Positions 3,821 through 18,609 of a stretch of DNA of 45,936 nt are shown here, piece by piece. The notes below the pieces were generated by a model that saw nothing but the letters and a program-made list of their open reading frames with translations, did no database searches and was not told the origin of the DNA. The stretch is from Bacilli bacterium (GTDB lineage Bacteria; Bacillota_I; Bacilli_A; RF39; UBA660). The stretch is taken from the NCBI GenBank assembly GCA_017473105.1, contig JAFUNE010000013.1, positions 1 through 45,936 of the forward strand, read 5' to 3'. Position numbers and translations under genes: made by a program. Numbering within the stretch: the first letter of the stretch is position 1; every line of letters begins with the position of its first letter.

Positions 3821-6754
3821 ATGAGTAAGAAGGGTTTTACATTAGTAGAAATAATTGCAACAATAGTAATCATAGCAGTTGTTGGATTAATAGCAGTTCC
3901 TGGTGTTATAAAGAGTTTTAATAACAGTAAAATTGATTCTATAAAAATACAAGAAAATAATCTAGTGCAATCAGGTGACTTACTACTAGATGATTATTGT
4001 AAAGACTCGATTAACAAATATAATAAAGATAAATGTGATATGTATTATCAAGAGCTAGTATTAACAGATATAGAAAAAGAAAATAATAAAGATTTTTTAT
4101 CCAATGAAAAAATATATAAATATATTTGTGTTGATGATATAAAAAGTCTTAAATACTATACAGAAGAATTAAAGTTTTCAGGGAATTCTTGTAATGGTGT
4201 AGTAATTTATGAAATTGATAAAAAAACAAATATGAAAAGTGACTCATATTCATATATAAAATGTAATGATTCATATAAAACAGAAGATAAAAATATTAAA
4301 ATAGAAGAGTTATTCAAAAACTGTTTTGATGAAATTAAAACAGAAGATGATTACAATAAAACATTTACTGTAACAGTAAAACATGTAGAAAATGATTTAG
4401 GCGGAATGGAAATAAAACCAAGAGATACATTTTTACTTAGTAATCAAGACTATGAGAATGAAACTATAATATCAATTAAAACAACACTTCATCAAAAAAA
4501 TGGAAATACATATAATACTGGCCTAAATAAAGGCGGGAAAGATATAGAATTAACTTCAAGAATAGAAGATGGAGTTACTATATATGATGTAACAAAATTA
4601 CCAAAAGAAAATCTTATAATTAATGTGGTTTATTCAGTTGAAAAACATAATATAGTGACAAATTATTTTAAATACACCCCTGGATCAGAAAGAGAACATT
4701 CAACACAAACATTAAAACAAAAAACAACACTTACAGGTTTTACTTATGAAACAGTTAGTGTGGATGCTCCAGAAGAATTAACAGAAAAAATAAACGGTCA
4801 AGATGAAAAATACATATTGTATGCTGCATATGTAGATGAAAATAAAAGAACACTACCATTTGATAATAATATAGATATTGGCCAAAAAGATAAACAAGTA
4901 GAACTTGTATATCAAAGAGAAAGTTTTAATATCAAATATAATAATAATGGTGGAACAGGTTGCGATAAAGGCAGAATAAAATATAAAGAAAACTTTAATA
5001 ATTTGTGTGAACCAACAAGAACAGGTTATGATTTTAAAGGATGGAGCCTTACAAATGGTGGAGAAATCTTAAAAAAAGAAGAACAAAATTTAAATTACAA
5101 TGATTTAAATTTATATGCAGTATGGGAAGCACATACATTTAAATTTATATTTAAAGGAAACGGTAATGCTTCTGGAAAAACAGAAGAAATAATATGTGAA
5201 TATGATAAAGATTGCAAATTACCAACAAATGGTTTTGTAAGACCAGGATATAAATTTGATAAATGGTATTTAAATCAAACACAAACAGGTACAGGATATT
5301 CTGAAAATACAAACTTGAAAAATTATAAAACAGAAAATAAAAAAATAATTAATTTATACGCAGGATGGAAAGCTGAATCATACGATATTACCCTTGATGC
5401 AAATGGTGGAACACCTTCAACACAAACAGTAAGTGTAACATATGCAAAAAATTATGGAACATTACCAACAGCATCATGGACAGGATATACTTTTGATGGA
5501 TGGTTCACTGAAAAAACAGAAGGAGAAGAAATTACGAAAGATACTTTGGTTACAATAACAAGCAATCAAAGACTGTACGCAAAATGGAAACCAGTTATTC
5601 ATAATATTACCTATGACTTAGGAACAGTTCAATATTCAAGTCTTGGAGAAAATGCGCCAACAAGTGCTCAGTACACTAAAACTAAAACAATAAGTGCACC
5701 AACAGCAAAAGGTTTCACATTTAAAGGATGGACACTTAGTAACACAAGTTCAAAATTGAATGGAAACACACTAACAATGGGTAATCAAGATATTAAATTA
5801 ACAGCAAATTGGGAAGCAAATTTATCTTCGTACGTTACATATCTTTATAATAATCACAGTTCTGATAATAATTTAATAAAGGACAATACTGAAGATGAAA
5901 ATATAAGATACTATAATTCAAATCCAAACAACTATGTAAAATTTAATGGGGAACTTTGGAGAATGATAGGAGTATTCAATGTAAGTAATGGAAAAACAAC
6001 GTCAAATAGAATTAAATTAATTAGAGCAACAAATTTAATTGATGCATCATGGGATTCATCAAATTCAAATGTAAATGGTGGAAATGGAGAAGATGAGTGG
6101 TCACAAGCAAGTATTAAAACATTGCTAAATGACTACTATTATAGTGGAACAACATCATGTTTATATTGTGATGATGCAAATCAACAAACGTGTATTAAAA
6201 CATGTGATTTTAGTAAAATGACAAATGAAGCAAAAAATATGATTGAAAATGCAGTATGGTATCTTGGTGGAATAGAATTTGGTGGAGACGAAAGTGCAGC
6301 CGGAGATGGAATTCATACAGCAAAAGAAGCATATGAAAGAGAAAGACAAGGAAGAGAAAAAAAACCTTTCTGTAAAAATTATGCATCAACGCCACATTGT
6401 AAAGGCGATTACGTAGATAGAACATCATCTTGGACAGGCGCAGTAGGATTAATATATGCAAGTGACTTTGGATTTGCTTCATCAAATAAAGATTGCTATG
6501 ACTATGATGTTGCATATAATACAAAATGTCAAAAAAATAACTGGATGCTTTCAAAAGAAGGGGAAAACTACTGGACAATAACTCATAGACATTCAACATA
6601 TTATGCAGATGCAATTCATCAAGTAGGTTCAACACAAATGGGAGACGCATCTGCTAATGGACTTCATGGAGTAAGACCATCAGTTTATTTAAAAAATAGT
6701 GTTAAAGTTATAAATGGAAATGGTTCATCATCTAGCCCATACATATTAAAATAA
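3821..6754 (+). CDS. Prepilin-type surface protein with InlB/Flg_new repeats and C-terminal DUF6273-like domain
   Basis: 977 residues. The N-terminus is a class III (type IV prepilin) signal: KKGFTLVEIIATIVIIAVVG, with Gly before Phe and Glu at +5, as needed for prepilin peptidase cleavage and N-methylation. After an alpha-helical stalk and strand-rich spacer come about four Listeria-Bacteroides (Flg_new/InlB B) repeats at residues 369-666, each ending in GYxFxGW... LYAxW. The C-terminal part (about 700-977) has the FNGELWRMIGVF start and the VRPSVYLKNSV ending seen in DUF6273-like domains of gut Firmicutes surface proteins, with several Cys pairs. No LPXTG motif. Ordinary major pilins are about 150 residues, so this would be a surface-exposed or tip-like pilin-fold adhesin. 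No pilus assembly genes are in the window. Its host ligand is unknown. Confidence 0.75.
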   Translation: MSKKGFTLVEIIATIVIIAVVGLIAVPGVIKSFNNSKIDSIKIQENNLVQSGDLLLDDYCKDSINKYNKDKCDMYYQELVLTDIEKENNKDFLSNEKIYKYICVDDIKSLKYYTEELKFSGNSCNGVVIYEIDKKTNMKSDSYSYIKCNDSYKTEDKNIKIEELFKNCFDEIKTEDDYNKTFTVTVKHVENDLGGMEIKPRDTFLLSNQDYENETIISIKTTLHQKNGNTYNTGLNKGGKDIELTSRIEDGVTIYDVTKLPKENLIINVVYSVEKHNIVTNYFKYTPGSEREHSTQTLKQKTTLTGFTYETVSVDAPEELTEKINGQDEKYILYAAYVDENKRTLPFDNNIDIGQKDKQVELVYQRESFNIKYNNNGGTGCDKGRIKYKENFNNLCEPTRTGYDFKGWSLTNGGEILKKEEQNLNYNDLNLYAVWEAHTFKFIFKGNGNASGKTEEIICEYDKDCKLPTNGFVRPGYKFDKWYLNQTQTGTGYSENTNLKNYKTENKKIINLYAGWKAESYDITLDANGGTPSTQTVSVTYAKNYGTLPTASWTGYTFDGWFTEKTEGEEITKDTLVTITSNQRLYAKWKPVIHNITYDLGTVQYSSLGENAPTSAQYTKTKTISAPTAKGFTFKGWTLSNTSSKLNGNTLTMGNQDIKLTANWEANLSSYVTYLYNNHSSDNNLIKDNTEDENIRYYNSNPNNYVKFNGELWRMIGVFNVSNGKTTSNRIKLIRATNLIDASWDSSNSNVNGGNGEDEWSQASIKTLLNDYYYSGTTSCLYCDDANQQTCIKTCDFSKMTNEAKNMIENAVWYLGGIEFGGDESAAGDGIHTAKEAYERERQGREKKPFCKNYASTPHCKGDYVDRTSSWTGAVGLIYASDFGFASSNKDCYDYDVAYNTKCQKNNWMLSKEGENYWTITHRHSTYYADAIHQVGSTQMGDASANGLHGVRPSVYLKNSVKVINGNGSSSSPYILK
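4925..5821 (+). repeat. Four tandem InlB-type (Flg_new) repeat units in coding sequence
   Basis: Units are recognised by the spaced G-Y-x-F-x-G/K-W and L-Y-A-x-W motifs: GYDFKGW/LYAVW, GYKFDKW/LYAGW, GYTFDGW/LYAKW, GFTFKGW/LTANW. Unit length is about 70-80 residues; the units are diverged at DNA level, so the repeat is old. Confidence 0.75.
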
Positions 6755-9349: not shown

Positions 9350-9378
9350 TTGTCGAAAAAAGTATGATATACTATACA
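9350..9378 (+). promoter_or_regulatory. Promoter of the H1-tail membrane protein gene
   Basis: TTGTCG (9350-9355), 17-base spacer, TATACA (9373-9378), then AGGAGG at 9385-9390 and the ATG at 9400. Confidence 0.5.
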
Positions 9379-9399
9379 CATAGTAGGAGGAAGAATAGA

Positions 9400-9816
9400 A
9401 TGGCAAAAGATAGAAAACTTGTACTTAGTTGTAAAGAAGAACAAAAAATAGAGAAAGCATATTTAGAAACTTCTCAAGGAAAGATAGTATTTGCATTAAC
9501 ATTTGTTGCATGTTTTGCAATGTTAGTAGGATTACTAATTGAAACATACAAAGTTGCTGCAGAAGGAACAGGATTCCTAAATCCAGATAGTTTTTATTAT
9601 GAATATTCAAAAATGTTATTCATGTGGGGTGGAATTGCTGCTCTAATAGGATTATTCTTCTATATTAGATTTGCAATTGGTTATAAAAATGTAAAAACAA
9701 GAAGAGCGACTAAAAAAGCTGCACCAGCTGCTGAAAAGAAAGCTCCAGTTAAAAAGACTGCTGCTAAAAAAGCTCCAGCTAAAAAAACAACTAAAACAAC
9801 TACTAAGAAAAAATAA
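9400..9816 (+). CDS. Small two-TM membrane protein with Lys/Ala/Pro-rich histone-H1-like tail
   Basis: 138 residues. The start at 9400 is chosen because AGGAGG lies 9 bases upstream; an in-frame ATG at 9364 has no ribosome site and sits inside the promoter. After a charged N-terminus there are two membrane segments (IVFALTFVACFAMLVGLLI and MLFMWGGIAALIGLFFYIRFAIG) and then a tail of about 35 residues of KKAP, KKTA and KKTT units ending in KKK. Both ends are predicted cytoplasmic. The tail looks like histone H1 or bacterial H1-like nucleoid proteins and could bind DNA, RNA or acidic lipids. This is inference from composition only. It is flanked by its own promoter and terminator. I do not recognise a family. 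Confidence 0.6.
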   Translation: MAKDRKLVLSCKEEQKIEKAYLETSQGKIVFALTFVACFAMLVGLLIETYKVAAEGTGFLNPDSFYYEYSKMLFMWGGIAALIGLFFYIRFAIGYKNVKTRRATKKAAPAAEKKAPVKKTAAKKAPAKKTTKTTTKKK

Positions 9817-9915: not shown

Positions 9916-11787
9916 GTGAATTTTAATAATATTGGTTTTAGTTTACCTTCTCTTATATTTATAATAATTATCTTAAGTATATATATATTAAAGAATAGAA
10001 AAAGAGGATTAAGAGAGTATTTATTTATAGCATTAATGATAATTGTAGCTGTAATAGGATTACTAGAAATTATTATTCCATTTGCGATAACTATATCAAA
10101 AACAAATGCATTTACGAATATAGTTTCAAAATTATTTTTATCTCTTGTAGCAATATGGCAATTTATGTTTGTTTTTTACATAGATACGCTAGTTTATAAT
10201 GGAGATAGAAAACAAAATAAATTAGTAAGATATCCAATTTTGATTATCGCTACAATACTTATGTTATTTTTTATAGTGTCATTTATATTTATGGATATGG
10301 AATATAGTGGTGGAAAGCACGTAACAAATTATGCTATAACAGGAATGCCAACATTCTATATGTATTTAGATATAGTACTAGCAAGTATATTTGTTCTATA
10401 TTATATAAATATTCATATTGATTTTATAAAAAACATTTACATGAAACCAATAATTATTGTTTTAACCCTTTACTTTTTAATAATAATAGCTCAAATAGCG
10501 TTAAATATTGAATTAAATGAAATAACATTCTTCGGTTCACTATTAATCACAGTTATCTATTTCACAATAGAAAGCCAAGATTTTAAATTAATAGATGAAT
10601 ACAAAGAATCAAAAATAGAAGCCGAAAAAGAAGATAAAGCAAAAACTGCATTTTTAGTAAATATGTCACATGAAATAAGAACACCATTAAATACAATAAT
10701 AGGATTTGCACAAATAATAAATGAAGAACCAACATTTGACAGAGAACATTTTCAAAAAGATTTAAAAAATATAATTGATGCAAGTGAAACATTATCAAGT
10801 TTAATACATAATATATTAGATATATCAGTTATAGAATCAGATGAATTAATATTAAATGAAAAAGAATATATTTTAGAAAGTTTAATATTTGAAATAAATA
10901 GTTTAATACCATCTAAAATAACTAATGATGAATTAAGATTCACAATTGATATTGATCAAAATATACCAAGAGAATACTATGGAGACGCATATAAAATATT
11001 CAAAGTATTATCATATATATTATTAAATGCAATTGATAATACAACATATGGTGAAGTAAAACTTGAAATATCTGGAGAGAAAAAAGAAAATGGATATTTT
11101 GAACAAAAATTTGTAATTTACAATACAGGTCATACAATGAGTAATGAAAACTTCGAAAAAGATTTTGAAGATTTTGTAAAATTACAAAGTACTGGAGAGG
11201 GAAAACTTAGTAACATAAAACTAGGATTAATAATTGCAAAAGAATTAATAACACTATTAAATGGTGATATTGAATTTATAAATGCTAAAGGTCAAGGAAC
11301 AAGATATATTATAAAAATTAAACAAAAAATAGTAAGTGAATTACCAATTGGAAATATATTTGAAAACGTAACAAACGGACTTGCTACAACAAGAAACTTA
11401 CTTTATTTACCAGATAAAACAGCGATGGTTGTTGATGATGGAGAAGTAAACTTAGCAATGGCAAGAAAAAGCTTAGAGCAATATGGCTTAAAAATTATTA
11501 CAGTTAAAAGCGGAAAAGAATGTGTAGAAATAGTTAAGAATCAAAAAATAGACATAATCTTTTTAGATCACATGATGCCAGAAATGGATGGTATAGCAAC
11601 TATAAAAGCATTAAATTCAACAGGATGTGAAATACCACCAATAGTAGCATTAACAGCAAACAATTATGACGCATTAAAAACAGAATATATCGCACAAGGA
11701 TTTAATTATTATTTACAAAAACCAATTGTATTTAAAGAATTAAATAGGGTGATGAAAGAAATATTCGCACAAAACGAAGATGATTAA
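9916..11787 (+). CDS. 7-TM hybrid histidine kinase with intact His but degenerate ATP site
   Basis: 623 residues. GTG start at 9916, 6 bases after AGGGTG. Residues 1-220 hold about seven membrane segments. A coiled linker leads to HisKA with FLVNMSHEIRTPLN, where H252 is the phospho-acceptor. The following ATPase domain keeps the N-box Asn (LLNAIDNT), but the D-box DxGxG is NTGHT (N403, T407) and the G2 box GxGLGL is degraded to NIKLGL, so ATP binding by itself is doubtful. The C-terminal receiver is complete: VVDDG, acceptor D551 in FLDHMMPEMDG, LTAN and LQKPI. The next gene starts 18 bases downstream and is a paralogue of the same layout with the reciprocal defect. Likely role: signal-receiving, phospho-accepting half of a heteromeric sensor kinase. 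The input signal and the target of the receiver are unknown; no DNA-binding output gene is nearby. Confidence 0.88.
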   Translation: MNFNNIGFSLPSLIFIIIILSIYILKNRKRGLREYLFIALMIIVAVIGLLEIIIPFAITISKTNAFTNIVSKLFLSLVAIWQFMFVFYIDTLVYNGDRKQNKLVRYPILIIATILMLFFIVSFIFMDMEYSGGKHVTNYAITGMPTFYMYLDIVLASIFVLYYINIHIDFIKNIYMKPIIIVLTLYFLIIIAQIALNIELNEITFFGSLLITVIYFTIESQDFKLIDEYKESKIEAEKEDKAKTAFLVNMSHEIRTPLNTIIGFAQIINEEPTFDREHFQKDLKNIIDASETLSSLIHNILDISVIESDELILNEKEYILESLIFEINSLIPSKITNDELRFTIDIDQNIPREYYGDAYKIFKVLSYILLNAIDNTTYGEVKLEISGEKKENGYFEQKFVIYNTGHTMSNENFEKDFEDFVKLQSTGEGKLSNIKLGLIIAKELITLLNGDIEFINAKGQGTRYIIKIKQKIVSELPIGNIFENVTNGLATTRNLLYLPDKTAMVVDDGEVNLAMARKSLEQYGLKIITVKSGKECVEIVKNQKIDIIFLDHMMPEMDGIATIKALNSTGCEIPPIVALTANNYDALKTEYIAQGFNYYLQKPIVFKELNRVMKEIFAQNEDD

Positions 11788-11805
11788 TAGTAAAGGAGGA
11801 GAAAT

Positions 11806-13668
11806 ATGCAAAATGGATTATCACCAGCAATAGTAAGCTTATCAATCTTAATGATAATATTCATGATTTATGATACAAAAGAAAAAATAAATAATTTACA
11901 AAGTAAGCTTTTTAATACATTAACATATACAAGTTTTCTATTTTGCTTAATAACACTTCTTTATTCGACAATGCTAGTATCATTAAATTCATTTATAATT
12001 AATTTGGTATTTTGGAGAACATATAATTTACTATTTGTAGCATTTTGGGAAATATTACTTTTATTTCTAATAATTATAATTCAAAAATATAAAAATAAAA
12101 CAATGAAAGACTTATGGGAAACAAATATATTAGTAAGAGTAATATTGATAGTATTTACAATTTTAGAGGTTATATTATTATTGTTCCCACATGTTTCAAT
12201 ATATGAAAAATTTGATTTTAGAAATATCACTTTTACAAGTTTAATATTATCGATTTTAAGTATATTAATTTCACTATCAATAATTGTGATTATAAATGTC
12301 TTAATGAAAAAGAACAAAGAAAAATTAGATGAAGATGATAAAAAAAGTATTAATATGATTATATATTGTACACTATTTGTAATATTGCAAGTATTAATGC
12401 CTTCTATATCAATATATGCTTTTTCAACTGCGATAATAACATCAATTGTATATTTAACATATGCAAATCCAGATATAGAAATAACAAGAGAATTATCAAA
12501 AGCACAAAAAACTATAAAAGATAGTGCAAAAACAAAAACAGATTTCTTATCAAATGTAACATCTGAAATAAAAACACCAGTTAGTTATATAACATCGTTA
12601 TGTACAAATCTAGAAAATCTTGAAGAATATAATGTTGATGAAGTCAAAAAGACAATGAATCATATTATTTTATCAGGAAACAACTTATTAGAAATTGTAA
12701 ATAATGTACTGGATATTTCTAAAATTGAAAGTGGAAATGAAATAACTATAAAAAATGAATATAACATAAAAAATCTTATTGATGATATTTCTGGTGTAGT
12801 AAAATCAAAATTAGGACAAAAGAATGTAACACTTGAAGTAAACTTATCTGGAGAATTATCAAGTGTATATGAAGGAGATGTTATTAAAATATATCAAGTA
12901 TTACAAAATGTCTTAACAAATGCTGCTAAATATACAGAAGTAGGAAAAATAACATTTGATATTACAAGTACAAAGCTACCACTAGGAGAAAAATTATTAT
13001 TTAAAATTGCTGATACAGGAAATGGAATTAAACCTGATGACCAAGATAAATTATTTAAAAAAGGAACAAGATTAGAAAGTTCAATAGATAACGAAATTGA
13101 AGGAGCCGGATACGGACTATCAATAACTAAAGAGTATCTAGATTTAATGGAAGGAAAAATTTGGTTTGAAAGTGAGTATCAAGTAGGAACAACATTCTAC
13201 ATAGAAATACCACAAAAAGTTATAAATCCAACACCATTAAAAGAATTAATCAAGGAAGAATATGTATCTCAATCAACAGAAATTGACTGCGAGAATAAAG
13301 TAGCTTTAGTAGTAGATGATAATAAATTAAATAACAAAGTTATTAAGAGACTACTAGAAAGATATAAATTTAAAGTAGTTACAGTATCAAGTGGACAAGA
13401 CTGTATTTATAAAGTAAAAAGTGAAGAAAAATTCGATATAATATTTATGGACCAAGTAATGCCAGATATGTCAGGAATTGAAACAATGAAAGCATTAAGA
13501 GGATTAGATGGTTATGAATTACCACCATTAATCTCATTAACTGCAAATGCAGTTAGTGGAATGAAAGAGCATTACTTAGGAGAAGGATTTGATGAATATT
13601 TATCAAAACCAATAAATACAAGTGATCTTGAAAAAATATTAACAAAATATTTTAAGAAGACAAATTAA
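11806..13668 (+). CDS. 7-TM hybrid histidine kinase with complete ATP site but Ser replacing the phospho-acceptor His
   Basis: 620 residues, ATG with AAGGAGG 8 bases upstream. The layout is the same as in the preceding gene: about seven membrane segments (1-215), linker, HisKA-like dimerisation helix, HATPase and receiver. In the H-box the sequence is FLSNVTSEIKTPVS: the His position is Ser253 (codon TCT at 12562). The ATPase is intact: N-box QNVLTNAAKYTE, D-box DTGNGI with D403, G2 box GAGYGLSI. The receiver has VVDDN, acceptor D549 in FMDQVMPDMSG, LTAN and LSKPI. Such a protein cannot autophosphorylate on His in the usual way but could supply ATPase activity to the His-bearing neighbour in a mixed dimer. 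It shares a transcript with that neighbour. It could also be a pseudokinase scaffold. Confidence 0.88.
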   Translation: MQNGLSPAIVSLSILMIIFMIYDTKEKINNLQSKLFNTLTYTSFLFCLITLLYSTMLVSLNSFIINLVFWRTYNLLFVAFWEILLLFLIIIIQKYKNKTMKDLWETNILVRVILIVFTILEVILLLFPHVSIYEKFDFRNITFTSLILSILSILISLSIIVIINVLMKKNKEKLDEDDKKSINMIIYCTLFVILQVLMPSISIYAFSTAIITSIVYLTYANPDIEITRELSKAQKTIKDSAKTKTDFLSNVTSEIKTPVSYITSLCTNLENLEEYNVDEVKKTMNHIILSGNNLLEIVNNVLDISKIESGNEITIKNEYNIKNLIDDISGVVKSKLGQKNVTLEVNLSGELSSVYEGDVIKIYQVLQNVLTNAAKYTEVGKITFDITSTKLPLGEKLLFKIADTGNGIKPDDQDKLFKKGTRLESSIDNEIEGAGYGLSITKEYLDLMEGKIWFESEYQVGTTFYIEIPQKVINPTPLKELIKEEYVSQSTEIDCENKVALVVDDNKLNNKVIKRLLERYKFKVVTVSSGQDCIYKVKSEEKFDIIFMDQVMPDMSGIETMKALRGLDGYELPPLISLTANAVSGMKEHYLGEGFDEYLSKPINTSDLEKILTKYFKKTN

Positions 13669-13680
13669 TGTCTTCTTTTA
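13654..13680 (+). terminator. Possible weak terminator after the kinase pair
   Basis: Stem AAGAAGAC (13654-13661) with GTCTTCTT (13670-13677), then TTTA. The T-tail is short, so partial readthrough into the DUF4870-like gene is likely. Confidence 0.45.
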
Positions 13681-14037: not shown

Positions 14038-17000
14038 ATGAAATATAGACATAAAATATACCAATTGTTTAGTAAAAAATTAAATGTACCAAAGAGAATA
14101 CTTTCAAAAGTGTACAACAATAGAGTTACGCTAAAAGAGTATATTGAATACGAACTATATGGAAAAATACCACTAGAATGTCTTTTAGAAGAAGATAGAA
14201 AAATATTAGACAAATTTGGACTTGAAAAAATTTTATCATTAGATTGGGAACTTTTTAATATAAACTTCTATATTCATGATGAAATAGATTTAAATTTAAT
14301 ACTAAAAAATATTCCAAAAGAAGTTGAAGATATAAATGAAATATTATATGAGTTATTAAAAACAAAAATAAGACCAAGTCAATATTCGTCTAAAATGAAA
14401 GAACTATATCCTGATAGAATATTTTTAATTAAAGAAGATGATACAAAAGATATTAAACAAAAAAAAGAAAGATATAATGAAGGAGACGTATCACTTGAAA
14501 ATATACTAAAAGATTGGGAATTATATAAAGATAAAAAATTGGATTATTGTTTATCAAATGACAATAAAAATTCATATAAAATAACAGAAGAAGAATTAAG
14601 AAATTTTAAAAATAAATATGGTAATCTAGTATCATTAATAATAAAACATAATGATATATATAAGTTTATATATGAACATAATATTTTAAAAACAGAAGTT
14701 GAACAAAAAGAATTTATAAAAAAATTTACGGATGACTTAATTAAAGAAAAAAAATGGTCATATCAAAATATAGAATTATCAAATGAAGAATATATGGAAG
14801 TATTCAAGTATTCATCTTTAGAAGAATTTTTGAAAAATATACAAAGTAGTTATGGAACATATTTATTAGAAGAATTAAATACACTATCACCAAATTATAT
14901 ATTTAAAACAGAATTTCCATTTGAGTTATTCAAAGATCCAGGAGTTTTAGGTTTCGTAGGGATATATGGTTTAAAAAATACAATAGAATTTGATAGAGAA
15001 TGTGGTAATTTCTTTTCTAAAAATAATTTTAGAATATTAAAAATAATGTATGAAACATATATGCATTATGCACATGGTGCACAAGACGGATTAAAATTTT
15101 ATATAATACAACCAAGAGATGAAAATGGTAATTTATATGAAATACCATATAGAAAAGAAGATTTCTATGAAACTATAAGAAGAATGATAGTAAATGGTCC
15201 AACGAATTATGACTACGCAGAAAAAGCACCAAATTATTCGGACTTACAAGGCGAATTTAGAAAAAGATATCAAGAAATGTTCTTAAGTGAAGATGCACCA
15301 CAAGAATTACAAGATGCATTTTATACAAAAAAGATAACACCAAGATTATTAAAAGACCATCCGGAATATATAGAATATTTAAGAGGAAAAAATCTGCATT
15401 CTTGCTTTGAAAAAGAAAGCGCAAGAACGCAATTAGAAAGTGGATATTTTAAATATATCAATCTATATGAACATCTAAGTAAAAATCTTACATTTGATGA
15501 AATGATGGAGTATATTAAAGAATATGCAGATATAATAGAAATGTATTCGAATCTAGACTATCGTGATAGAGTTCACATAGATTTTATTATAGATACAGAA
15601 CCAACTTATGAAAGCATAATGAGTAGTACAGATGAATTATTTAGAAAAATGATTATAGAAAAAAAGAGTCCATATACACCAAATGTTCCGAAACATCTAA
15701 AAGAGAATCTTAGTGGGTTATTCATGAGAGAAGATGCACCAAAAGAATTATTAGAAATGTTCTATAGCAGAAAAATTGATAGAAGAATTTTTTTTCATCA
15801 TCCAGAATATAGAGAATACTTTAATAATATAGACCCAGAAGTTATTTGTAGACCATTACTAGTTTGGTCATCTAAACCAAATGGGGGAAGTAGACAAATA
15901 AATCTAATAGAAGACATAAAAGAAAAATTTGGTCATTCAGCAATTGATATAGTATTATGTTATGGAGAATACTTAGAAAAAATGAGTGAAACAAATGAAC
16001 TATTATATTTTAACCACTCATCAAATTATACAAAAGATGACTTACAAGATGAATTGGATAAACAAGTCTACGAATTAATAACAAGTGGGAAAACAAAATA
16101 TGATGAATATATGAGTGAATCATTTAAAAATAAACATCCAAATATGTTTTTAAGTGATAACGTTGAACAAGAAATAAAAGATAAATTTTATAATAGAGAA
16201 TTTAAAAAAGAAGATTTTGAAAATAATCCTGAACTATTAGATAAATTTGGAGATACAAATATAATATGCGGTTTATCACCAGAATACGCATGGCTTATTC
16301 CAATGTTTAAAAATTCAAAAAATGCAAATGAAAATAGACTAAAAGTATTAGATGAATTTTTAGAAATAAAAGATGTATCATTACAAAATGCATTCAAAGA
16401 ATATATGGCAGATTGCATAGATGAAATAGATTTAGAAAAAACAAAATATATTGCAGAAGTAATGAAAAGATTATCTTTATCTAATTCTAAAGAAATGATA
16501 ACTTTTAGAAAAGAACTAGCAGTACAAATACTTAATTCACAAGACCCGCTTTCAAGTTTAGATAAAATAGAAAGTATATTTATAAAAAATAATATACCAA
16601 CAGTCGGAAAAATATATTCATGTTTTGAAATATTACATCCTAATTTAGAAAAATTTGATTTTAGCCCAAGTTCAACAACATCACCAGTATTAAAAAAAAA
16701 TTCTAATGAAGGAAGAAAAGTAATAATATTTTCAGATTTAATAAAAGCATCATTTGGTTCAAATAATAGAAGTGTTAATAAATACTTATCAAATATTGAT
16801 GTTTCACATAGTTTATACGAAAACATAATAAATGGTAGTATAAAATATGATGAATTAACAATAGAAGAACAAAATGAATTAAAGCAATTTTTAAAACATT
16901 TAATAACTCTATATAACAATACAAAAAAAGGTAAACAAGATTTAAATGGATTTGAAGAAACAACTGATATAATCAAAGATATAACAGAAATAAAAAAACT

Positions 17001-18609
17001 ATTATCTCCAAATGGAACACTAGATTATAACCTAGCAGATAGAGTAATAAATATGTTTTGTCATTTTGCAGGAATTAAAACGCTAAAAGAAGCAAAAGAC
17101 TATATCGAAAATAAGATTAAAAATGCTGAATTAAGAAATATAGAAGCATCAAAAAGAGATATGGTATTAGAAGAAGGAGATTATATAAAAGGAATACAAG
17201 GAGGTATAGCATACCTAGGAAGTATTCTTCAAAATGGAAGCGTATCAAAAGAATATTTAGGTTCAAGTGCTGGAAGTGATGCAACACCGCTAGATACAGA
17301 TATATCAAGAATAATGAAAAGTGAAGGAACAAACAGAGATAAAATATTATCAACAGAAGCAGCAACTTATGGAAATATATGGTTTGTTTTAAAAAATGAT
17401 GATAGATTCCAGGTAACAAGAGGAGAACAACAAATTGAAGAACAAGACATAAAAAGAAGCGATAAACTTGAGGTATTTCTAACTGGAGTTGTAGGAAAAG
17501 GACACTATGGAATAAGAACTGGATTTTCATCAAGCGATATTAATTATATAGTTGTAGAGAAATATGACGAAAAAGTGGCAATGGAAATAGTAATAAACGG
17601 ATTCTATATACCAATTGCAGACAAAGATGGAAAGATTATTTTTACATATGAAGATTATCTATATTTGAAATCAAAAATGAATGGTCTTACATATTATGGA
17701 GAAAAAGGTTATAGATTTTCACATAATTTAGTTAATCCAGAAATAGAAGAAATCGCATCTAAACTAGATGAAAGTAATGTTGAAGTAGCTAAAAAAAGAA
17801 AAAGAATCAACGAATTAATATATAGTGCTTTAAAAGAATTTAATTTAGAACTAAAAACAACTATTGATGGTGACTTAACATCAGGAGTAGTAGAACTTAT
17901 AGATACTGGTTCAACAGGAAGAGGGACAAATAAACCAGGTGATGGAGATTTTGATTTCATAATGAGAGTTGATAAAAAAATACTATCTGAACCAGCAAAA
18001 ATAGAAGAAATAAAAAGTGCATTACTTAAAAAGTTTAATAAAATTGGAGCGGGTGGAATTATATCAACAGGAGATTTTAGATTAAAAGATGTAAATATAG
18101 AACCAAATGTGAATGTTGATATTGATATTACTTTTGTAGAAAAAACAGATCAGGTAACATATTCAACTGATATGTGTCTTCAAGATAGACTAAAAACTAT
18201 TTATGAAACAGATAAAGAAAAATATAAATATGTAATTGCAAACATATTACTTGCAAAAAAAGTATTAAAAGAAGCAAATGCCTATAAACCATACAGAAGT
18301 GATAGAATTCAAGGAGGACTTGGAGGAGTAGGCGTTGAAAACTGGATTTTACAAAATGGTGGATCATTTAAAGATGCAGCAAAAAGTTTTCTTGATGCTT
18401 CAAGAGGAAAGACATTTGAAGAATTTAAAGAAATATATAAAATATGGGATTTTGGAGAAAATCATCTAGCATTAAAAAATTTAAACTATCCACATGATAA
18501 CTTTGTGAATAATATGAGCAAAGAGGGATATGAAAAGATGCAAAAAGCATTAAGAGAATTTTTACTTTTATATGAAGAAGATATGATATATACAAGCAAA
18601 CGTAAATAA
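14038..18609 (+). CDS. Giant helical-repeat protein with C-terminal nucleotidyltransferase core
   Basis: 1523 residues, no signal peptide or membrane segment. The N-terminal half is helical and carries a repeated motif FLxEDAPxELxxxFYxxKI...HPEY near residues 415, 565 and 706, with a weaker copy near 132. A middle region (about 1045-1230) is strand-rich and contains YLGSSAGSDATPLDTDIS and GIRTGFSSSDINYIVVE, which I cannot assign; it faintly recalls ADP-ribosyltransferase folds. The C-terminal region has a Pol-beta-type nucleotidyltransferase signature: GS (1291-1292), GDGDFDF with D1304/D1306, and a third acid in NVDIDITF (D1361/D1363). It is followed by GGLGGVGVENWILQ, which resembles the helical second domain of OAS/archaeal CCA-adding enzymes. 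This suggests transfer of NMP to an RNA, protein or small molecule. pnuC follows at once. Substrate unknown. Confidence 0.6.
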   Translation: MKYRHKIYQLFSKKLNVPKRILSKVYNNRVTLKEYIEYELYGKIPLECLLEEDRKILDKFGLEKILSLDWELFNINFYIHDEIDLNLILKNIPKEVEDINEILYELLKTKIRPSQYSSKMKELYPDRIFLIKEDDTKDIKQKKERYNEGDVSLENILKDWELYKDKKLDYCLSNDNKNSYKITEEELRNFKNKYGNLVSLIIKHNDIYKFIYEHNILKTEVEQKEFIKKFTDDLIKEKKWSYQNIELSNEEYMEVFKYSSLEEFLKNIQSSYGTYLLEELNTLSPNYIFKTEFPFELFKDPGVLGFVGIYGLKNTIEFDRECGNFFSKNNFRILKIMYETYMHYAHGAQDGLKFYIIQPRDENGNLYEIPYRKEDFYETIRRMIVNGPTNYDYAEKAPNYSDLQGEFRKRYQEMFLSEDAPQELQDAFYTKKITPRLLKDHPEYIEYLRGKNLHSCFEKESARTQLESGYFKYINLYEHLSKNLTFDEMMEYIKEYADIIEMYSNLDYRDRVHIDFIIDTEPTYESIMSSTDELFRKMIIEKKSPYTPNVPKHLKENLSGLFMREDAPKELLEMFYSRKIDRRIFFHHPEYREYFNNIDPEVICRPLLVWSSKPNGGSRQINLIEDIKEKFGHSAIDIVLCYGEYLEKMSETNELLYFNHSSNYTKDDLQDELDKQVYELITSGKTKYDEYMSESFKNKHPNMFLSDNVEQEIKDKFYNREFKKEDFENNPELLDKFGDTNIICGLSPEYAWLIPMFKNSKNANENRLKVLDEFLEIKDVSLQNAFKEYMADCIDEIDLEKTKYIAEVMKRLSLSNSKEMITFRKELAVQILNSQDPLSSLDKIESIFIKNNIPTVGKIYSCFEILHPNLEKFDFSPSSTTSPVLKKNSNEGRKVIIFSDLIKASFGSNNRSVNKYLSNIDVSHSLYENIINGSIKYDELTIEEQNELKQFLKHLITLYNNTKKGKQDLNGFEETTDIIKDITEIKKLLSPNGTLDYNLADRVINMFCHFAGIKTLKEAKDYIENKIKNAELRNIEASKRDMVLEEGDYIKGIQGGIAYLGSILQNGSVSKEYLGSSAGSDATPLDTDISRIMKSEGTNRDKILSTEAATYGNIWFVLKNDDRFQVTRGEQQIEEQDIKRSDKLEVFLTGVVGKGHYGIRTGFSSSDINYIVVEKYDEKVAMEIVINGFYIPIADKDGKIIFTYEDYLYLKSKMNGLTYYGEKGYRFSHNLVNPEIEEIASKLDESNVEVAKKRKRINELIYSALKEFNLELKTTIDGDLTSGVVELIDTGSTGRGTNKPGDGDFDFIMRVDKKILSEPAKIEEIKSALLKKFNKIGAGGIISTGDFRLKDVNIEPNVNVDIDITFVEKTDQVTYSTDMCLQDRLKTIYETDKEKYKYVIANILLAKKVLKEANAYKPYRSDRIQGGLGGVGVENWILQNGGSFKDAAKSFLDASRGKTFEEFKEIYKIWDFGENHLALKNLNYPHDNFVNNMSKEGYEKMQKALREFLLLYEEDMIYTSKRK

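Follow-up and report, generated by a model that had tools for sequence, protein, structure and literature searches.

Two adjacent genes at positions 9916 to 13,668 of a 45,936-nucleotide stretch of DNA from a Bacilli bacterium (the window; contig JAFUNE010000013.1 of assembly GCA_017473105.1) encode hybrid histidine kinases, here called HK1 and HK2, whose active sites are damaged in complementary ways. HK1 carries a phospho-accepting histidine and a dead-looking ATP site, and HK2 has intact ATP motifs and lacks the acceptor histidine. We propose, at a probability of about three in four, that the two are subunits of a single hybrid kinase, an obligate heterodimer in this clade, in which HK2 would phosphorylate His252 of HK1 in trans. 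HK2 would bind ATP and act across the dimer, and the phosphoryl group would then pass to either receiver or to both, and from there to a further protein with histidine phosphotransfer (HPt) and receiver parts. The ATP domain of HK1, its usual ATP binding gone, would be kept to hold the asymmetric complex, which is the simplest possibility, or to sense something.

Complementary active sites in two adjacent kinases

The host group consists of uncultured gut bacteria, and the window is AT-rich (24% G+C). The features of the pair are given below, where DHp denotes the dimerization and histidine phosphotransfer domain.

9916..11787, + strand: HK1, hybrid histidine kinase (623 amino acids, GTG start), acceptor His present, ATP site dead-looking
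9916..10590, + strand: seven-helix input of HK1, residues 1-225 (helices from the AlphaFold2 model; no Pfam family)
10669..10671, + strand: codon of HK1 His252 (MSHEIRTP), predicted to be the sole phospho-acceptor among the DHp domains of the pair; His in 120/120 listed relatives
11122..11136, + strand: HK1 N403-T-G-H-T, replacing DxGxG; N[TS]GH in 120/120 listed relatives
11425..11745, + strand: HK1 receiver domain, residues 504-610 (Pfam PF00072), with Asp551 and Lys602
11794..11799, + strand: AGGAGG, ribosome-binding site of HK2, inside the 18-base spacer and six bases 5' of the ATG
11806..13668, + strand: HK2, hybrid histidine kinase (620 amino acids), ATP motifs intact, without acceptor His
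12562..12564, + strand: codon of HK2 Ser253 (VTSEIKTP) at the His position; the replacement varies among listed relatives
13012..13026, + strand: HK2 D403-T-G-N-G, G1 box intact; D, G and G in 119/120 listed relatives
13306..13641, + strand: HK2 receiver domain, residues 501-612 (Pfam PF00072), with Asp549 and Lys601

The original prediction, made from the letters of the window alone, had already described the extent of the pair, H252 and Ser253, the N-T-G-H-T, D-T-G-N-G and GAGYGL motifs and the 18 bases between the genes, and all of them are as it described. Both ATP motifs begin at residue 403 of their protein; the G2 box of HK2 (GAGYGL) is intact, and HK1 lacks two of the G2 glycines. HisKA, HATPase_c and Response_reg are each found above the Pfam cut-offs in both proteins. 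The domain that had been called broken is in each case the one with the weaker Pfam score, which agrees with the assignment of the damage: HATPase_c scores 45.4 bits in HK1 against 87.9 in HK2, and HisKA 34.5 bits in HK2 against 58.5 in HK1. The receivers, described as full, indeed match PF00072 and hold the acidic pair, the phospho-acceptor Asp and the Lys.

AlphaFold2 models of the two single chains (mean predicted local distance difference test, pLDDT, 78.2 for HK1 and 79.4 for HK2; predicted template-modelling score, pTM, 0.44 and 0.45; 26 and 28 sequences) place DHp, ATP and receiver elements in the usual order behind seven N-terminal helices, which in HK1 span residues 9-26, 32-60, 65-94, 102-125, 144-166, 177-196 and 203-219. 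The seven helices of the proposed seven-transmembrane (7-TM) inputs are therefore present in both models, and that they span the membrane is a reading of the sequence. Neither N-terminal part matched a Pfam family. Among the top Protein Data Bank matches of the HK1 model are ShkA, GacS, HK853, RetS and DivL (4q20).

Active-site state among relatives

The database sample comprised 120 listed of 1034 matches to HK1 and 120 listed of 1244 matches to HK2, and is redundant, with many near-identical proteins (P0121 to P0140, for example, are at least 95% identical to HK2 of the window). Every one of the listed HK1 relatives has the acceptor His, the N[TS]GH motif and the N-box Asn, and N403, G405 and H406 are invariant across the 26 and 16 HK1 rows that were aligned, the reciprocal clade included. 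In the four commonest N-box forms (92 of the 120), Tyr stands in for the first Asn of the HK2 box and Asp or Glu for its Lys; some of the other forms carry Ser or Ala instead of that Lys, or an Asn instead of the Tyr. Among the listed HK2 relatives, His is absent in 115, the acceptor position being Ser in 53, Tyr in 47, Thr in 10, His in five, Val in three, and Leu and Phe in one each. The D-G-G of the G1 box is kept in 119, and the remaining protein, of 392 amino acids, is without the motif region. The acidic pair, Asp and Lys of the receiver are retained in 118 HK1 and 119 HK2 relatives, the rest being gapped there.

The reciprocal motif state is thus fixed among the listed relatives. Chance or an assembly error is ruled out as its source, since the same state recurs in all 120 listed HK1 and 115 listed HK2 relatives. 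A substitute histidine in HK2 was also sought, and none reaches 30% in residues 226-475 of the 115 His-less relatives. Only one of the five His-bearing HK2 relatives, P0223, is in the tree described below, where it falls in the sister lineage; the other four resemble one another (SHEIR[ST]P, DTGYG). When HK1 and HK2 relatives whose longest contigs are of exactly equal size in the two listings were taken as contig mates, 26 of 26 such pairs were reciprocal.

Pairing in genomes

One genome per species was scanned with an HK1 alignment; of the 513 relatives found, the best 80, in 75 loci, were kept, so that more distant relatives lie outside this view. The analysis covers the 42 loci with the 7-TM family (L001-L041 and L048) and the window; the other 33 loci hold other hybrid kinases. 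Thirty-five adjacent family pairs were counted, setting aside five complete kinases without a partner (L031, L035-L038), the unrelated couple of regulator and kinase at L011 and the HK2-type genes at the contig starts of L028 and L030. In 20 pairs an ATP-dead HK1 with its His stands beside a complete HK2. Eleven are fully reciprocal (L001, L002, L003, the first pair of L004, L005, L006, L007, L008, L024, L041 and the window), and a twelfth reciprocal pair is the second of L004, its HK2 being cut by the contig end before the ATP motif. One pair, L029, is complete on both sides. Loss of the same function on both partners was seen in none of the 35, with one HK2 ATP motif off the contig. The co-occurrence proposed in the original prediction, of His loss and D/G-box loss on opposite partners, is therefore found in every pair in which HK2 has lost its His, in these loci (12/35) as in the database (26/26).

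In the two pairs that complete the count, L026 and L040, HK1 has lost both the His and the ATP motif. These copies could be taken as a sign of ordinary decay, one or both genes heading for loss and the complementarity being coincidental. We find this scarcely credible, as the reading frames are full length, every domain is conserved over deep divergence, and HK2 is still complete in these same two pairs.

Neither gene was found alone with the same substitution in the loci fetched, an observation that would have told against the idea of split labour. Thirty-four of 36 HK1-class genes have an adjoining HK2, and the other two (L017 and L018, from the same two assemblies as L028 and L030) end 57 bases and 1 base from a contig end. 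A search seeded with HK2 in the genus of the reciprocal genomes (18 genomes; these loci overlap those of the HK1 scan) yielded 13 HK2-class matches (E 1e-180), spread over eight genomes, each with an HK1-class gene directly upstream: in nine cases the HK2 is His-less and the HK1 has both His and N[TS]GH, and in four the HK2 bears a His and the HK1 has a His together with a G1 box that is eroded. A reciprocal pair occurs in seven of the 18 genomes, one of which, G001, has three. Across the wider order, where up to three candidates per genome were scored, 281 of 385 genomes match at E 1e-60 and only 11 below 1e-200 (HK1 proper); in nine of these 11 an HK2 lies directly beside, and two are at contig ends. 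Among the loci fetched and examined, as distinct from all relatives, no orphan HK1 or HK2 was found. The order- and family-wide matches are mostly other 7-TM hybrid kinases, and the 17 loci L089-L105 have His and G1 in all cases.

Some genomes hold several pairs. In G001 (assembly JAQXHG01; L001, L005, L024 and L040), the three reciprocal pairs are accompanied by one with a doubly dead HK1, and L004 has two HK1/HK2 pairs in tandem; what duplicates seems to be the pair and not one gene by itself. Another type of pair, also from the genus of the reciprocal genomes (L032, L033, L034, L159, L166, L168 and L169), combines an HK1 with His and a G1 box eroded without consensus with a complete HK2, where L159, L166 and L168 appear to be the same places as L032, L033 and L034.

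Order of the losses and probable direction of phosphorylation

Two trees place the losses in sequence. The first, of 120 rows, was built with motif columns removed and without rows outside 560-730 amino acids or gapped at the motifs, and its inputs include 31 of the 240 database proteins and 13 of the 30 order-wide loci. HK1 (47 rows) is separate from the rest, and the HK2 clade above L029 splits into 26 rows (25 His-bearing plus L041; Shimodaira-Hasegawa-like approximate likelihood ratio test, SH-aLRT, 88) and 27 His-less rows (SH-aLRT 99). On this tree the fewest changes are one for the ATP motif and three for the His (the main HK2 clade, the HK2 of L041 and the HK1 of L040). The second tree, of 44 rows, uses the cytoplasmic domains, is rooted on six single complete kinases and omits L040 and L041. 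Here the N[TS]GH clade is supported at 100/100 (ultrafast bootstrap/SH-aLRT) and the His-less clade at 100/99; the first complete kinases of L029, L088 and L131 group with the N[TS]GH clade (97/92), and the second complete kinases of L029 and L131 with HK2 (100/98). The trees disagree on one point: the 44-row tree places the His-less clade inside the His-bearing HK2 (97/80), and the 120-row tree beside them as their sister. In both, the loss of His is derived in this clade. L040, L041 and L024 form long branches, and the loss of the HK2 His in L041 is less sure.

From the placement of the losses and of the complete kinases on the trees, we read three successive events: first a tandem duplication, next a single loss of the ATP motif from HK1, and last the loss of the His from HK2. 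A complete kinase would have been duplicated in tandem and the HK1 ATP site lost once; from then on the His of HK2 would have been unusable in a trans-acting heterodimer, and one lineage lost it. The corresponding series would run from complete/complete through ATP-dead/complete to ATP-dead/His-less. Within the His-less clade the vacated position has changed at least eight times among Y, S, V, T, L and F, as expected of a position no longer in use, while the His of HK1 and the G1 box of HK2 are retained.

The pattern of losses points sharply to phosphorylation in trans. With the ATP site of HK1 dead, a trans reaction in the heterodimer reaches only the His of HK1, and it is this His that is invariant and that of HK2 that has been lost. 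A cis reaction would reach only the His of HK2, so that the His of HK1, not that of HK2, would be the useless one. The evolutionary record of the dependence between the two proteins is unusually complete. Obligate heterodimerization with split labour, as originally predicted, is hence supported by comparative evidence, from which both the heterodimer and its trans direction are inferred. The stronger statement that each subunit is useless alone could apply to the derived clade only, given that HK2 is complete in the sister lineages; in two of the 35 pairs HK1 is doubly dead beside a complete HK2.

Conservation of the ATP domain of HK1

Mean pairwise identities were compared in hand-picked taxa, 16 reciprocal (the window, six loci and nine of the 26 database pairs) and 12 of the 20 sister pairs. 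In the sister taxa the ATP domain of HK2 is the better conserved (0.729, against 0.558 in HK1; higher in 65 of 66 comparisons), while in the reciprocal taxa the values are 0.590 for HK2 and 0.624 for HK1, HK2 being higher in 40 of 120. Relative to its own DHp domain, the ATP domain of HK1 stands at 0.558 versus 0.718 in the sister taxa and at 0.624 versus 0.626 in the reciprocal clade; in HK2 the two domains are about equal in both (0.729 versus 0.735 and 0.590 versus 0.582). Receiver identity in the reciprocal clade is 0.592 for HK1 and 0.661 for HK2. The conservation of the dead ATP domain in the reciprocal clade suggests that it is under constraint and therefore probably has another role, for example in an asymmetric contact surface or in the binding of a ligand.

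It could alternatively be supposed that N-T-G-H is a working site with changed chemistry, for another nucleotide or with an altered lid, such that HK1 autophosphorylates and HK2 regulates it. That the site is under selection, as the invariance of N403, G405 and H406 and of the N-box Asn in the listed relatives indicates, would suit such a proposal. We nonetheless regard it as very improbable: the D, the second G1 Gly and the two G2 glycines are gone, the N-box Lys has become Asp or Glu in the commonest forms, and beside intact HK2 the motif is eroded to ATVES, SEHSE or SNGSE in some sister lineages. The catalytic motifs of HK2 would, moreover, have no clear reason to stay intact.

Possible relay partners

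With HK2 as the kinase of the heterodimer and HK1 as its acceptor, a relay from the HK1 His to a receiver, an HPt domain and a further receiver is plausible. A protein with HPt and receiver parts is encoded in seven of the seven reciprocal genomes searched, and these proteins, judged by eye, stop after the receiver. Elsewhere, clusters of HPt proteins (PF01627) and of receiver-HD regulators (PF00072 plus PF13487) were each found at 20 of 43 examined loci, their Pfam annotation coming from one HPt protein and two regulators that were scanned. They occur in sister-lineage pairs and beside single kinases, and at L029 lie downstream of the complete/complete pair. Members of these clusters are absent within five genes of the reciprocal pairs, that of the window included, and no separate regulator was present among the neighbouring genes scanned at the window pair.

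The HPt-receiver protein adjoins what we take to be a spoIIIAH-like gene at L109, L110, L111, L125, L126 and L128. At L109-L111 it follows a hybrid kinase with His and G1, the N-terminus of which is outside the locus.

Weighing the heterodimer against known systems

Several points weigh against the proposed heterodimer. It rests on sequence comparison, the structure models being of single chains, and the pattern depends on few independent events, one ATP loss and one main His loss. Co-inheritance within an operon would by itself yield matching trees, and the adjacency of the 26 database pairs is deduced from the equal size of the longest contig. The doubly dead HK1 copies of L026 and L040 indicate that HK1 can persist as something other than an acceptor. 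Conservation in the reciprocal clade is higher for HK1 than for HK2 in the transmembrane region (0.339 versus 0.283) and the DHp domain (0.626 versus 0.582) as well, so that part of the shift in the ATP domain is explained by a faster evolution of HK2 overall. The ATP domain of HK1 might still bind a nucleotide. HPt domains were matched in 11 of 11 genomes tried and in eight of 14 control genomes, and their presence, not being special to the reciprocal genomes, is weak evidence for the relay. Finally, cis action is reported for ArcB, itself a hybrid kinase (PMC4734776); cis phosphorylation is also treated in PMC5956149.

HK1 and HK2 could instead form two separate homodimers, HK2 as a pseudo-kinase in which ATP binding only drives conformation and HK1 as a phosphotransferase or phosphatase whose His receives phosphoryl groups in reverse from the relay. 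Thr stands four residues after the HK1 His in 116 of the 120 listed relatives, at a position needed for phosphatase activity, and Tyr occupies the acceptor position in 47 of the 120 listed HK2 relatives. A precedent is DivL, one of the structural matches of the HK1 model, a pseudo-histidine kinase with Tyr for His that senses DivK~P and can work in vivo without kinase activity (PMC4211667). The likeness to HK2 lies in the replacement of His in a folded kinase core. In DivL that Tyr is largely conserved, however, whereas HK2 has Ser in the window and drifts over S, Y, T, V, L and F in its relatives, and the passages cited give no sign that DivL is half of an adjacent reciprocal pair. Separate homodimers would also leave unexplained the adjacency of the genes and the lack of orphans in the examined loci, and would give HK2 no reason to keep its G1 and G2 boxes once its own His had gone. 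We therefore hold this alternative to be unlikely.

The heterodimer itself has relatives in the literature. Sensor kinases of bacteria are typically homodimers, and the nearest functional case is FasB/FasC of group A Streptococcus, in which two neighbouring membrane sensor kinases heterodimerize and form no homodimers in two-hybrid assays (PMC12675982). FasC, whose His246 is needed, is proposed to be a pseudokinase, and the kinase domain of FasB is taken as necessary and sufficient (PMC12675982). HK1 and HK2 are likewise paired, adjacent membrane sensor kinases, but FasB and FasC are non-hybrid, have six predicted transmembrane segments each and act with a separate DNA-binding regulator, FasA, whereas receivers are attached to both HK1 and HK2. 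FasB retains its DHp His284, so that its split with FasC, unlike the motifs of HK1 and HK2, is not demonstrably reciprocal.

In Rhodobacter sphaeroides neither CheA3 nor CheA4 autophosphorylates alone, and their mixture phosphorylates CheA3 (PMC3591291); Hik36/Hik43 is of the same split CheA type (PMC7656254). Acceptor and kinase are on separate proteins there, as the motifs suggest for HK1 and HK2, but CheA3 lacks P3 and P4 and CheA4 lacks P1, while HK1 and HK2 keep all domains and have lost only active-site residues. The G2* and H243A mutants of EnvZ, which complement each other in vitro as heterodimers acting in trans (PMC4734776), combine the same defects as a laboratory construct, not as a natural, fixed two-gene state. 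GacS and RetS form a sensor-kinase heterodimer as proposed here, but the partners also homodimerize and RetS inhibits GacS, with no catalytic split described in the passages cited (PMC12189002, PMC12675982); GacS/RetS and DivL are reviewed in PMC12189002. A heterodimer has also been raised as an idea for a His-less hybrid kinase (PMC11481889). The original prediction had called the split unfamiliar as a standard layout for adjacent 7-TM hybrid kinases. No reciprocal pair of hybrid kinases like HK1/HK2 was found in the openly licensed literature searched, and FasB/FasC and CheA3/CheA4 already divide labour in a related manner.

Other features of the locus

The promoter scan returned 43 signals against 42.5 expected from shuffled sequence, which is nothing above shuffles. 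Terminator-like sites numbered two against 0.5 expected; the score of each is for the minus strand, and one (13654-13677) is at the end of HK2.

Positions 14038-18609 encode a 1523-amino-acid protein with no Pfam or NCBIfam match, in which the stretch GSTGRGTNKPGDGDFDFIM resembles a nucleotidyltransferase motif. A 977-amino-acid protein at 3821-6754 has a prepilin-type N-terminus and Listeria-Bacteroides repeats, and relatives of it occur immediately after single 7-TM hybrid kinases, on their downstream side, at L031, L035, L036 and L037. The 150-amino-acid protein at 9364-9816 has a Lys/Ala/Thr-rich, histone-H1-like tail and no Pfam match.

Implications

We lean, by a narrow measure, towards regarding the pair as a natural obligate heterodimer that was built stepwise, with the steps surviving in living species and the dead ATP domain now serving as a conserved, non-catalytic module. 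Sequence by itself points to an enforced partnership and to trans phosphorylation, and if the heterodimer is real, the order of losses would in its own right report the direction of autophosphorylation. The survival of the intermediate states makes the transition from homomer to obligate heteromer testable on present-day proteins. It could further be speculated that the pairing of two different seven-helix inputs might form a coincidence detector.

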